DNA of 20,659 bases from a virus. This document shows positions 7,131 through 11,000 of this stretch, piece after piece; within the stretch, counting starts at the first letter, position 1, and every line of letters starts with the position of its first letter. A model generated the notes under the pieces. That model ran no database searches and was not told the origin of the DNA. It saw only the letters and a list, made by a program, of their open reading frames with translations. The DNA is taken from positions 1-20,659 of the IMG/VR virus record IMGVR_UViG_3300044624_001919, one strand, 5' to 3'. The translations under genes and the position numbers were made by a program.

Positions 7131-9032
7131 CTATCCCAATTCAGGATTGTTTTTAGCAAAGTTGGCAGCACTGAATCGCATGCGATCAACAAATTTCATG
7201 CCCTGACCCACATATCCTTCGTGCCCGGGTTCGTTGTTGATGCTGGCCTGCACTGCCTGTGACTGTGAATCCAATTGACGCACCAGTTGATTTTTAAGAC
7301 TGGACACTTCAATGAATGCTTGGAATAGTGCTGCTACTGCCTGTTTGTTTTCGGTTGCCCATTCAAAAATTCTCGGAGCTTTGGCAGGTTCTTGTTGTTG
7401 TATCCACGACCCAAACCCGCTTACCAAGTTGTCATAGCTGCCGCCGCGCACACGACTGTTGATGTAAGTTTTAATCAAGGCAGGAAAATTGCTGATCTTT
7501 CTTGCACGTAATTCGGTAGGATCAAACAAGCGATCCATGGCAGCACCATACTGAGAAAGCAAACGGTTGGCATCTGCTACTGTTTTGGCATCTAATTTGA
7601 TTGTTCGAGGATCTTTGAGACTGGGATCTAGTATAAGAAGCCCTGGACTATCTGCCAATGCTGCAGCACGAATGGGTTCAGCTGGTGCACCCGGTGCAGA
7701 TAAACTGGTGTGTATGGCAACCGCGGCTGTGCTGTCGGCGATCTTTTTGCCCAGATCAGAATCCACAGGCACAGCATACTTGACAGTGTTGGGCTGGAAT
7801 ACCCATTGATTGCCAATACGCTGCGGAGTAGAAGAATAAAGTAAATCACCTTGTATGTAACCGCGAAAGTCTTGCGGAACTGCTCGGCGCAGCATAGGAA
7901 ACAGGCGTTGATAAATGGCAACCAGTTCGCCACGTTCGCCGCCACGTTGTGCCATTATCTTGGCAATGTGTTCTGGGCTTGTGGCCAAGCCATCGTAGCC
8001 CTTGGCCAAAAATCCCGACTTGTCAGTCAGCACGAATTCACCTGAAGGTTTTCGCCCAAAGATGATGGCAGGTTTTCCATCCCATTTAACAGTGGTTTCT
8101 TGTGGACGCTGGGCTGCTGCTACAATGCCAGCAAGTGCTTGTTTAAGGCCGGCACTGGGACGTTGGTCAAAAATCATGTCCTCGGGGTGCTCAATGCGTA
8201 CACCTTCTACAATGACCTGCATACCTTGGTTCACTATACGATCACGCAGACGTGCCATCATGCTGACTTCGTTGTATTCGGTGTATAATTCTGTGTTTTC
8301 TTTTACTAGCCCATCATCAAAAGGAATGCCTTCGCGTTCCATGTGTGCTTTGAAATCTGCAATTTTTTGTGGCTTTTTGGGATCTGCTTCCAGTGCTCGC
8401 ATGACTGCTTCTACGCTGGACAAATCTGCAAGAGTAGCATTTGGGCTCAATAGCATCTTTGCCACTTGTGCCGGATCGTCAGTTATTAATTCGTTGGTGG
8501 CACGATTCATTATGCCGTCGTTTTGATTCAACTTGTAACCCAGGCTCTTGGCCATGCTGTTCAGCATGATGTTACGCAAGGCACCTTTGTATCGGCTAGC
8601 AGGATCATTGCTTAATACAAACTGTGTCCAGCGTGGCTTGTTGCTGAACATGAAGTCTGTTTGCACAAACCCGTTCGCAGGGTTGCCGCCAATGGCTGCA
8701 AAGAAGTGTACCGCTGATCCAGTTTTTTTGATGTAGCGAGCAGGATCTACTTTTTGTTTCTGCGTCCAGACTGTTAGCACTTGTGTCAATTGATCTTTTG
8801 ACATTTCCCCTGCATCAACAGACAAATCCAAGTCACCAGAGTCTGCTTTTCGTCCAGTGGATCCTAACCATTTAACAGGACTGCCGTCGGCAGCTTTTTC
8901 GCTGGTTAAATCCAGTCCAGTAATGCCTTCCAGCCATTGCACAGTGGGCATGACGTCAGCTTGTTTAATTCTTTGCGTGAGTGGTGTCCCGGTGGAGTCT
9001 TTAAATACATTACCGCCTTCGTTTATATTCAT
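7131..9032 (-). CDS. Nucleotidyltransferase plus ligase-like fusion (DUF6267-like C-terminal part)
   Basis: The 633-aa product appears to join two nucleotidyl-transfer modules. Residues about 25-215 hold a Pol-beta-type pattern: GSTGRKADSGDLDLSVD (G57-S58, D67, D69) and a third acid D126 in FVQTDFMFS. Residues about 275-445 resemble the DUF6267-type phage protein and a covalent nucleotidyltransferase core: VKWDGKPAIIFGR, where K316-x-D318-G319 fits ligase motif I, then GYIQGDLLYS (D396, motif III-like) and FQPNTVKYAVP. The classic R five residues after the lysine is P321, so ligase activity is uncertain. Residues 450-633 are helical and unrecognised. The ATG overlaps the 567-aa gene stop (ATGA) within the virion-type region. 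Both domain calls are motif-based. Confidence 0.8.
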   Translation of the reverse strand: MNINEGGNVFKDSTGTPLTQRIKQADVMPTVQWLEGITGLDLTSEKAADGSPVKWLGSTGRKADSGDLDLSVDAGEMSKDQLTQVLTVWTQKQKVDPARYIKKTGSAVHFFAAIGGNPANGFVQTDFMFSNKPRWTQFVLSNDPASRYKGALRNIMLNSMAKSLGYKLNQNDGIMNRATNELITDDPAQVAKMLLSPNATLADLSSVEAVMRALEADPKKPQKIADFKAHMEREGIPFDDGLVKENTELYTEYNEVSMMARLRDRIVNQGMQVIVEGVRIEHPEDMIFDQRPSAGLKQALAGIVAAAQRPQETTVKWDGKPAIIFGRKPSGEFVLTDKSGFLAKGYDGLATSPEHIAKIMAQRGGERGELVAIYQRLFPMLRRAVPQDFRGYIQGDLLYSSTPQRIGNQWVFQPNTVKYAVPVDSDLGKKIADSTAAVAIHTSLSAPGAPAEPIRAAALADSPGLLILDPSLKDPRTIKLDAKTVADANRLLSQYGAAMDRLFDPTELRARKISNFPALIKTYINSRVRGGSYDNLVSGFGSWIQQQEPAKAPRIFEWATENKQAVAALFQAFIEVSSLKNQLVRQLDSQSQAVQASINNEPGHEGYVGQGMKFVDRMRFSAANFAKNNPELG

Positions 9033-10732
9033 ATTTTTCTCTGACTTCTAAGACTTTCATTGGTGCCAGTTGCTAATCTGTCTCGATCATCAATTATTTC
9101 AAAATCTTTTATCAATTGTGCTCGTTGCGCAGGTGTCATCATTTCGTACGATTTCAACAACTGCGAATTATTCATTGCAGGACCAGGCTCTGCAGCCGGA
9201 AGTGGTTTTGCTGCTGTAGCTGATGTAGCAGCAGCAGGAGTACTCGAAATAGCAGCCCCTGAGGTAGCTGGGGTAGCTGGGGTAGCTGGGGTAGCTGGGG
9301 TAGCTGGGGTAGTTGCGCCAGCCGCAGGAGTGTTGACTTCAATATTCATAGCACCAAAGATATCTTGTATTACATCATCAGATATATTATTACTACGTAG
9401 TATGGTGGCAATAATGCCACTGTCAGTGGGACGTCCAGCATATTCCCAATGTTTAAGTAGTGCTGCCGGATTTATTTGTTTGTTGGTAATTTTTTGTGCA
9501 AGTTTGCCACCTACGGATTTGATTTTATCCCATGTAGGACCTTCGGTAAGTTGACCACCCGCAATGGCAAATATTTCACGTATTTCTTTGTTGGTTAGTC
9601 TGGTATAACCTTCCTTAACCTGAGGAGCAGGAGCAGGAGTTTTAGCTGCTGGTGCAGGTGCTGCAGATGCCCCGGCTATGCCTCCTTGTACAGCCGCAGT
9701 AAGTGTTGAAGAAATTTTAGCAGCTACTTCCTTAAAATTAGCGGCATTAGCTACTGCTTGATCATATAATTTTTGATTATTACCAGCTATCTCTTTCACT
9801 GCTTGTCGCACTTCTGGATTATCAACTATAGCTGTAACTTCCTTCCAGTATCTATCAGCTCCAGCCCAATTGCCAGCATCAATATACTTTTCAGTTTGAT
9901 CTATAAGTAATTCTAATTTAGGAGCTAATTGGCTAGGAATTATTATTCCACGAAGATCACCAAAAAAGAATCCAGGATTGTTACCACCAATCCTGATGGA
10001 CGTCCGTCTAAAACCGAGTTGGGTAAGCTGTGTATATCCTGGTATCTGTCTGGCAACAACCTCGATGTTTCCAAAATAATCACCTAGTGCAGTTATGCCG
10101 GCGCCTAAGGCCCCGCCAATAGCAGCCGACTTGGCGCCTTTGCCCACAGCAGTTGATAACTTCTCGCCTTTCAGCAACTCTGTTGCACCACGTAATATTT
10201 GACCAGCAATGGCACCACCTGCTGGACCTGTGGTGAAGGCTGCTACTGCTGTTAGTGCACCTATCACAAAGGCTGTCTTGCCGGGGTTGGCCTTGGCATA
10301 TTGACCCAGTTGATCAATCACAGCCATTGTTTTGCTGTCTGTGCCTAATTTGGCAGAAATCTTTTGTTTTAGATCTTCAAACTTCTGATCAAAATATTGA
10401 ACAGGCGCAGTGGTCTGCAAGTATCGACCTAGTCCGTCAATGGCTTTGTTTACAGCACCAGCAGCAGTGCCCACAGCACTGCCCACTGCCTTGGTTGTAT
10501 CTACAGCCTTACCAATTGCAGTACGACCAACACCGCCCTGAGCTGTTTGCTTTTGCTGGGCCTGTTGGAAAATTTGTTGTATTTGATCTGCAGTAAGAGT
10601 GGTTTCAAACAAGGGGCGCAGGTCTCGCACCATGCCTTCCACTATGTGACGTTGTTCACGTGTGAGATCGCGGCATACACTTTCAACAAGTGTGTTTGAT
10701 TTTCTAGCGTGGTTAAGTTCAAATATCTGCAT
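9029..10732 (-). CDS. Large Ala/Gly-rich putative virion protein
   Basis: The 567-aa product starts with a charged helical region (residues 1-65). A long Gly/Ala-rich stretch (about 66-225) follows, with apolar helices such as AFVIGALTAVAAFTTGPAGG and SAAIGGALGAGITALG that could insert in or cross a membrane. A middle domain (230-350) is followed by a Pro/Ala linker (about 355-370). A module at about 375-470 (LTNKEIREIFAIAGG, WEYAGRPTDSGIIATILRSN) is of a type seen in large structural proteins of marine T4-like phages. A TPA-repeat linker and a helical tail end it. A tail-tube, injected or internal virion protein would fit, but this is inference. It overlaps the 87-aa upstream gene by 14 nt. 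Confidence 0.8.
   Translation of the reverse strand: MQIFELNHARKSNTLVESVCRDLTREQRHIVEGMVRDLRPLFETTLTADQIQQIFQQAQQKQTAQGGVGRTAIGKAVDTTKAVGSAVGTAAGAVNKAIDGLGRYLQTTAPVQYFDQKFEDLKQKISAKLGTDSKTMAVIDQLGQYAKANPGKTAFVIGALTAVAAFTTGPAGGAIAGQILRGATELLKGEKLSTAVGKGAKSAAIGGALGAGITALGDYFGNIEVVARQIPGYTQLTQLGFRRTSIRIGGNNPGFFFGDLRGIIIPSQLAPKLELLIDQTEKYIDAGNWAGADRYWKEVTAIVDNPEVRQAVKEIAGNNQKLYDQAVANAANFKEVAAKISSTLTAAVQGGIAGASAAPAPAAKTPAPAPQVKEGYTRLTNKEIREIFAIAGGQLTEGPTWDKIKSVGGKLAQKITNKQINPAALLKHWEYAGRPTDSGIIATILRSNNISDDVIQDIFGAMNIEVNTPAAGATTPATPATPATPATPATSGAAISSTPAAATSATAAKPLPAAEPGPAMNNSQLLKSYEMMTPAQRAQLIKDFEIIDDRDRLATGTNESLRSQRKI
9263..9307. repeat. 9-bp tandem repeat encoding Thr-Pro-Ala units
   Basis: Five perfect copies of GGTAGCTGG run head to tail on the plus strand, then a diverged partial copy. 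On the coding strand they give repeated TPA tripeptides in the linker of the 567-aa virion protein. Being in frame, copy-number change would alter linker length without frameshift. Confidence 0.95.
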
Positions 10733-10979
10733 CTGTGCGCCTTACTGTTCGTGTAAATTTCTTAGCATCTTTGTCGCGAATTGCATTCAGCAATTTTCTT
10801 ATCAAGTTGTCTGCTTGCTCAGGACTATAACTTGATTCGATCTGTTCTATTAGACGTATGGCACTGGCAATGACATTGTCAGCGCGAGTCTCAATAATAT
10901 AGCGTCGATCACGGTCCGCATTTTTTTCTGTGTATAATGCATCTAGTTCTTCCAAGATGCTGCGAGTGCGTTTTTGCAT
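10719..10979 (-). CDS. Small conserved phage protein
   Basis: The 86-aa product starts MQKRTRSILEELDALYTEKN and is highly charged and helical (AIRLIEQIESSYSPEQADNL, then KFTRTVRRTDADI). I recall small T4-like cyanophage proteins with the same RTRS-LLEELD start and a KF-R-xR end, of unknown function. I chose the ATG at 10977-10979 because AAAGGG lies 11 nt upstream; the TTG at 10988 is too close to that ribosome site. A GCTAAATA late box lies 21 nt upstream in the short gap after the helicase gene. It overlaps the virion gene by 14 nt, so it is probably co-expressed late. Confidence 0.75.
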   Translation of the reverse strand: MQKRTRSILEELDALYTEKNADRDRRYIIETRADNVIASAIRLIEQIESSYSPEQADNLIRKLLNAIRDKDAKKFTRTVRRTDADI

Positions 10980-11000
10980 GTTTACCAAGACCCTTTCAAT

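Follow-up and report, generated by a model that had tools for sequence, protein, structure and literature searches.

A phage gene predicted to encode a processed precursor of a family-X-polymerase-like module and a DUF6267 ligase-like module

Why would a phage join two nucleotide-transfer modules in one polypeptide? This question was raised by a 633-residue protein encoded at 7131..9032 on the minus strand of IMG/VR virus record IMGVR_UViG_3300044624_001919 (positions 1 to 20,659; this whole stretch of 20,659 nucleotides is called the window, and all of its features given below lie on the same strand). The protein combined a family-X-polymerase-like module with a ligase-like DUF6267 domain, and 107 homologues were fused in the same way. 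Our answer, tentative and with the balance tipped somewhat against it, is that this predicted polyprotein would be cut inside the capsid by the prohead protease into a family-X-like polymerase and a member of a new ligase branch. Both would then be injected as a nucleic-acid repair kit for time zero of the infection.

The catalytic motifs of both modules were inspected in the window protein and its homologues. Module 1 carried G57-S58, the metal-binding pair D67-L-D69 (8826..8834) within GSTGRKADSGDLD, and the third catalytic aspartate, D126, in VQTDFMF (8655..8657). Module 2 carried motif I, K316-W-D318-G319, with the candidate nucleotidylated lysine (8076..8087), and a motif III-like element, G395-D396-L-L-Y399 (7836..7850). 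All of these stood at the positions given by the original prediction, which was made from the sequence alone. Its ligase motif set was right but incomplete, as it had overlooked the motif IV-like E605-G-Y-V608 (7209..7220) and the motif V-like K613-F-V615-D-R617 (7182..7196). G57, S58, D67, D69, D126, K316, D318, G319 and D396 were kept in 34 of 34 distinct full-length sequences, a set of homologues 59-92% identical to the query. The triad D67/D69/D126 was unchanged in 37 more diverse N-terminal domains with identity down to 21-25%. Among 72 diverse DUF6267 sequences with identity down to 25%, K316-x-D318-G319, D396, H441, E605-G606-x-V608 and K613-x-V615-x-R617 were invariant and G395 nearly so (residue numbers converted from model numbering, in which the first residue is 260). 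Variation at D67, D69, D126 or K316 would speak against the assignment, and none of the four ever varied. This conservation is far beyond chance.

The fold of module 1 was examined by structure prediction. An AlphaFold2 model of residues 1-268 had a predicted local distance difference test score (pLDDT) of 88.6 and a predicted template-modelling score (pTM) of 0.78. In a Foldseek comparison with PDB, the best 50 matches listed were all family-X DNA polymerases (lambda, beta, mu and PolX of African swine fever virus, ASFV), with a best E of 3.2e-5. The alignments spanned approximately 190-220 columns, and therefore indicated a palm plus thumb, which is more than a minimal nucleotidyltransferase core. 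The model and these matches place both in the predicted mature module 1, residues 6-276 (8205..9017). The Pol-beta superfamily named in the original prediction thus held, but the minimal tagging enzyme that it pictured gave way to a palm-and-thumb fold. The segment GSTGRKADSGDLDL presumably echoes the Pol beta signature GS..RR...SGD.D. Module 1 is a family-X-like polymerase fold with an intact catalytic triad, and polymerase activity is predicted from it. RlaP was also considered as the identity of module 1 and was rejected, with no PF10127 match and an hhalign E of 0.33 against the RlaP of Agrobacterium phage Atu_ph07. The PF10127 profile matched Atu_ph07 alone, at a gene other than its module-1 homologue.

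Mature module 2, predicted as residues 277-633 (7134..8204), belongs to DUF6267 (PF19782, E 4.4e-42; PHROG 455). The profile matched residues 280-627 with 145 bits against a gathering cut-off of 27. The AlphaFold2 model of residues 260-633 had pLDDT 91.6 and pTM 0.86. Motifs III-like and IV-like sat on predicted strands, and an all-helical insert, residues 482-590 (7263..7589), lay between the IIIa-like and IV-like strands. In this model the order of motif I, III-like, IIIa-like (H441), helical insert, IV-like and V-like can be read as that of the ligase superfamily. In BFVD, the matches that followed DUF6267-like proteins were the Atu_ph07 'RNA ligase' and PA5oct EST35_0228 (E 0.004-0.009, prob 0.92-0.96), whose genes adjoin or lie near a module-1 homologue. 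Profile comparison supported the ligase reading independently, as hhalign linked DUF6267 to this jumbo-phage ligase-like family with E 5e-8 and prob 94.8%, against 0.02-0.3 for unrelated controls. H-x-E-D, KxDG and PN-x-I-x-Y were common to both, and the jumbo-phage family itself matched PF09414 RNA_ligase weakly (E 0.001-0.0025). The window protein matched neither the PF01068 DNA ligase profile nor any NCBIfam family, and sequence searches of PDB were uninformative, whether made with the whole protein or with a profile of either domain. DUF6267 is a ligase-superfamily-like domain by sequence and model, with predicted catalysis. Together, the invariant motifs and structure matches supported the prediction of two nucleotidyl-transfer modules in a single chain.

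We then asked how firmly the two modules are tied together. Of 180 module-1 homologues, 107 were fused, 49 were separate with a ligase-like gene at 200 nt or less, and 9 had one within 2.1 kb. No ligase-like gene was visible for the remaining 15, of which 4 lay at a contig edge and 11 did not. Whole-record searches for nine of these lonely homologues turned up one DUF6267 at another place, and a 219-kb contig contained none; module 1 may therefore act without DUF6267. In the jumbo phages Phosso and Atu_ph07 the module-1 homologue was encoded separately, by a gene overlapping that of the ligase-like protein; this protein showed E-K-L-D-G, PN-x-(I/V)-x-Y, E-G-(V/Y)-V and, as motif V, a K-x-(V/F)-D type. 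Its counterpart in PA5oct lay three genes upstream. The joining of the modules was thus borne out by 107 fusions, but a tightly tied bifunctional enzyme was not, since many phages have separate genes and a protease site is predicted between the modules. In four contigs (L043, L044, L045, L068) the reading frame of the fused gene stayed open for approximately 230 codons further upstream (852 codons). Relatives were found neither in 84,980 prokaryote species genomes nor on plasmids, and the family was phage-restricted as far as tested.

The ends of the modules pointed to proteolytic processing. The window protein starts with the leader M1-N-I3-N-E5 (9018..9032), for which leader alignment predicted a cut at E5/G6 (a slash marks a predicted cut throughout). 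All 112 distinct leaders of this E type had (L/I/V)-x-E directly before GG (L 76, I 31, V 5), with 12 different residues at x. The other 16 leaders started M-GG; all were on separate-gene proteins, nearly all of the jumbo-phage branch. Because these 16 start M-GG where the 112 have xE/GG, the same mature end would be reached by cut or by initiation. A second cut was predicted in the linker, after I274-V-E276 (8205..8213) and before G277, in the sequence I274-V-E276/G277-V-R-I-E-H-P-E-D. An (L/I)-x-E site lay within 12 residues of HxED in 57 of 62 distinct fused linkers, and the remaining 5 had a similar triplet slightly further upstream. In 57 of 72 separate DUF6267 genes a leader ended at the position of the linker site, as in MRAFEFLTE/A...REFNHLED and MKLVEF...ILLE/DARIHHLED. 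Leader-bearing DUF6267 genes also occur in Stenotrophomonas phage DLP6 (predicted MMKFTQFLAE/S) and Pelagibacter phage HTVC008M (LLVE/D). The other 15 were mostly cyanophage-type genes starting at the mature end, MAKNTHLEHLED. Both predicted sites fell within stretches that AlphaFold2 gave as disordered (for the linker, residues 1-18 of the C-terminal model). The simplest reading of these sequences is that two leader-bearing genes may have fused and retained both protease sites.

The sites resembled those of capsid proteins. T4 gp21 cleaves at L/I-x-E and thereby removes capsid-targeting leaders (PMC9026906), and the piece removed from T4 Alt, at ITE, is just six residues long (PMC5694885). 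A T4-type prohead protease (PF03420) was present in 8 of 12 related records, namely a 343-kb contig with a fused member (G003) and all seven isolates tested first. It was also present in 2 of 10 further contigs, several of the others being fragments, as is the 20.7-kb window contig. Leader-like starts were enriched in neighbouring open reading frames (84/1024 vs 139/6415 internal methionines, p 1e-19), with a pattern defined after examples had been seen. In addition, the cyanophage cytidyltransferases of the cassette have repeatedly been detected in virions (PMC3037559, PMC9602691, PMC10665884). Two of them were checked and had the leaders MKSFLQFLKE/A and MKNFSSFLTE/A; because the virion-detected ones carry it, the leader accompanies packaging for these enzymes. 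In the PA5oct record, the module-1 homologue EST35_0231, the adjacent 81-residue EST35_0230 and several downstream products carry notes of detection in the virion by electrospray ionization tandem mass spectrometry (ESI-MS/MS). The conserved L/I-x-E sites at the N-terminus and in the linker strengthened the hunch that the enzyme is packaged. In phage S-SCSM1, ORF90, a virion protein beside NMNAT, was checked as a possible DUF6267 protein and is not one.

On the basis of the catalytic residues, the pairing and the sites, which come directly from sequence and models, we infer packaging, cleavage, ejection and repair in the following way. The leader would bring the precursor into the prohead core, and a T4-gp21-type prohead protease would cleave at E5/G6 and E276/G277. 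The two products, spanning residues 6-276 and 277-633 as mature enzymes, would remain inside the capsid and pass into the host together with the genome. Module 1 would extend or fill 3' ends, and module 2 would seal the remaining break through a lysine-nucleoside monophosphate (NMP) intermediate. The leading substrate would be the incoming phage DNA, in which environmental damage or host nucleases had left nicks or gaps ahead of phage gene expression, and tRNA would be a close second. Three points favoured DNA: the family-X fold, delivery together with the genome, and a gene position that follows primase and helicase. We give this capsid-targeted polyprotein for DNA repair slightly short of an even chance.

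Several results weigh against it. No Pfam family-X palm or thumb profile matched module 1 above the cut-off, and 1 of 37 module-1 members matched PF14791, weakly (E 0.074); we termed module 1 family-X-like, not a member, because these profiles miss the cut-off. The PDB matches of module 2 were led by ATP-dependent DNA ligases and were weak and partial (best E 0.056, prob 0.80). Its chain stops in a helix approximately 16 residues past R617 in the model, and the missing oligonucleotide-binding (OB) fold after motif V is unusual for DNA sealing. The second lysine of the motif V KxK is replaced by valine (V615), and hhalign showed no link between DUF6267 and the PF01068 DNA ligases of these phages. 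The 5-residue leader is shorter than the 10-residue capsid-targeting sequence of T4 internal proteins, and leaders of approximately 10 residues were on many separate DUF6267 genes. As for virions, the PA5oct list includes ribonucleotide reductase and other soluble enzymes, so that carry-over is possible, and the PA5oct module-1 homologue has no leader. A search for virion mass spectrometry of any fused member found none, and in S-SCSM1 several other genes are marked as encoding virion proteins but the one for DUF6267 is not. Finally, in three contigs (L225:6887-8035, and the same place in L237 and L238) a CCA-adding tRNA nucleotidyltransferase (PF01743, E 2e-36) lay between the module-1 and DUF6267 genes. 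It carries the leader MRAFEFLIE/D, of the type shared with the module genes, and its place in the cassette favours RNA.

An RNA substrate was favoured because of the missing OB fold, the PF09414 link and this CCA-adding enzyme with its near-identical leader. In the corresponding explanation, the packaged polyprotein would repair RNA, module 1 restoring lost 3' nucleotides and module 2 rejoining tRNAs that host anticodon nucleases had cleaved during the first minutes of infection, in the manner of RlaP plus an Rnl-type ligase. Module 2 ends soon after motif V like RNA ligases, the jumbo-phage partners match the RNA_ligase profile weakly, and jumbo phages have been described in which RlaP is paired with an RNA ligase (PMC7824862). 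However, module 1 is not RlaP, which Atu_ph07 encodes separately elsewhere, its fold matches were family-X polymerases, and the CCA association is limited to three near-identical contigs. We consider RNA repair unlikely, yet the most probable of the rival explanations.

A further explanation dispenses with packaging and with the capsid-cut precursor. The pair would work in ordinary intracellular replication or repair, with the L/I-x-E triplets coincidental or serving something else. The gene had been placed amid structural genes by the original prediction; it closes a primase-helicase block instead and lies outside any capsid or tail block, and primase and helicase precede it in nearly all relatives. 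In cyanomyoviruses, which have no recognised DNA ligase (PMC2984593), stand-alone DUF6267 comes after gp41. The profiles PF01068, PF01653 and PF09511 matched nothing in the cyanophage and pelagiphage records W04-W06 and W08-W10, and DUF6267 was present in at least W04-W06, W08 and W10. Stand-alone DUF6267 is a candidate for the missing ligase of these phages. However, phages of the fused family also encode a standard PF01068 ligase, and therefore this protein is probably not their replicative ligase and replication needs no second one. The leader pattern is also very regular, and neighbouring genes carry leaders too. We regard an unpackaged pair as improbable. Slightly more improbable is transfer of NMP to a host protein, or capping of RNA or DNA ends, by a host-takeover effector. 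KxDG followed by x-P is presumably similar to some capping-type motif I sequences, but we take the motif IV EGxV to be ligase-like, against DGxI in capping enzymes. A family-X palm-thumb also implies a polynucleotide primer. In favour of such an effector, NMNAT-like enzymes occur in the same cassette in cyanophages, and T4 Alt is an example of a packaged enzyme whose target is a host protein (PMC9026906). A toxin or defence system was rejected, with no match to any PADLOC profile, and nothing was found in support of the toxin-like or protein-modifying role that had been proposed.

Other genes around the locus were also examined. The ATG of the 7131-9032 gene overlaps the stop of an upstream gene of 567 residues (9029..10732), which has its own leader ending TLVE/S and a weak tape-measure-like PHROG match; in its homologues the leaders end LLIE/S and VLIE/N. 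Beyond it lies an 89-residue gene (10719..10988) of a virion structural PHROG family (phrog_11854, E 3.6e-14) with a homologue in PA5oct. A PGDYG-domain protein (948-1424) and a NUDIX hydrolase (1421-2299), whose sequences are otherwise unrelated, share a near-identical leader, MNP(E/D)xxRKYA(D/N)(L/I)I(T/N)E/A. From its sequence, this leader is likely a capsid-targeting sequence, and the NUDIX hydrolase may be packaged too. Two open reading frames at 268-964 resembled IscA- and IscU-type Fe-S assembly proteins, by sequence and synteny, and their order is kept in related contigs. In cyanophages, a pelagiphage and DLP6 (L058-L061, L264, L265), cytidyltransferase/NMNAT-like and P-loop kinase genes near DUF6267 bear T4-type leaders (MITFHVFITE/A, MIPFILKE/G, MKSFLQFLKE/A). 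HAD phosphatase genes (NT5C-like) lay directly upstream of the family-X-like gene in two contigs (L177:2606-3580, L184:5349-5984), and are possible end-healing partners. In contigs such as L233, L183 and L212, series of genes started with MRA(K/R)xF..., and additional nucleotidyltransferase-like proteins were among their products. This suggests that one group of large phages carries an extensive cassette of packaged enzymes.

The literature searched contained no mention of DUF6267, a family represented among sequenced phages by at least 468 records, most of them of marine cyanophages. RlaP-RNA ligase pairs in jumbo phages and packaged T4 enzymes with cleavable leaders are already known; a processed precursor that pairs a polymerase with a ligase appears new, as does the assignment of a ligase type to DUF6267. 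If the proposal is true, it would give DUF6267 its first function, which the ligase-type active site makes testable, and a bacterial-virus counterpart of the repair enzymes in large eukaryotic virus particles. If packaged, the end-repair enzymes would enter the cell ahead of any gene expression, which would matter for how damaged virions survive in sunlit water and for how the phages escape host nucleases. Cutting a polyprotein within the head would be an unusual way for a phage to express its genes. The assignment also bears on the old question of the cyanomyoviruses without a recognised ligase.

The predicted precursor can be compared with several known systems. It shares with T4 internal head proteins and Alt the short N-terminal (L/I)-x-E leader, the T4-type prohead protease in relatives and an enzymatic cargo, but the cargo here is polymerase-ligase, and an internal site in one precursor would release two enzymes. 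We know of no T4 homologue of such a precursor. Like the RlaP plus RNA ligase pairs (PF10127/PF09414; PMC7824862), it ties a Pol-beta-superfamily enzyme genetically to a ligase-superfamily enzyme; unlike them, it has predicted capsid-cleavage sites, and its module 1 has a family-X palm plus thumb and matched RlaP neither by profile nor by hhalign. DUF6267 is elsewhere often stand-alone or beside an NMNAT-like cytidyltransferase in cyanophages, and the family has been without a function so far. Module 1 resembles family-X polymerases (Pol beta, lambda and mu, and ASFV PolX) in its predicted fold over approximately 200 residues and its triad, but it lacks an 8-kDa or BRCT domain and was found here in phages alone. 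Polymerase and ligase are also linked for repair in LigD of bacterial non-homologous end joining and in the PolX-ligase pair of ASFV. This comparison concerns only how they work: LigD joins an archaeo-eukaryotic primase (AEP) polymerase to an OB-fold ligase, and PolX and ligase of ASFV are separate proteins.
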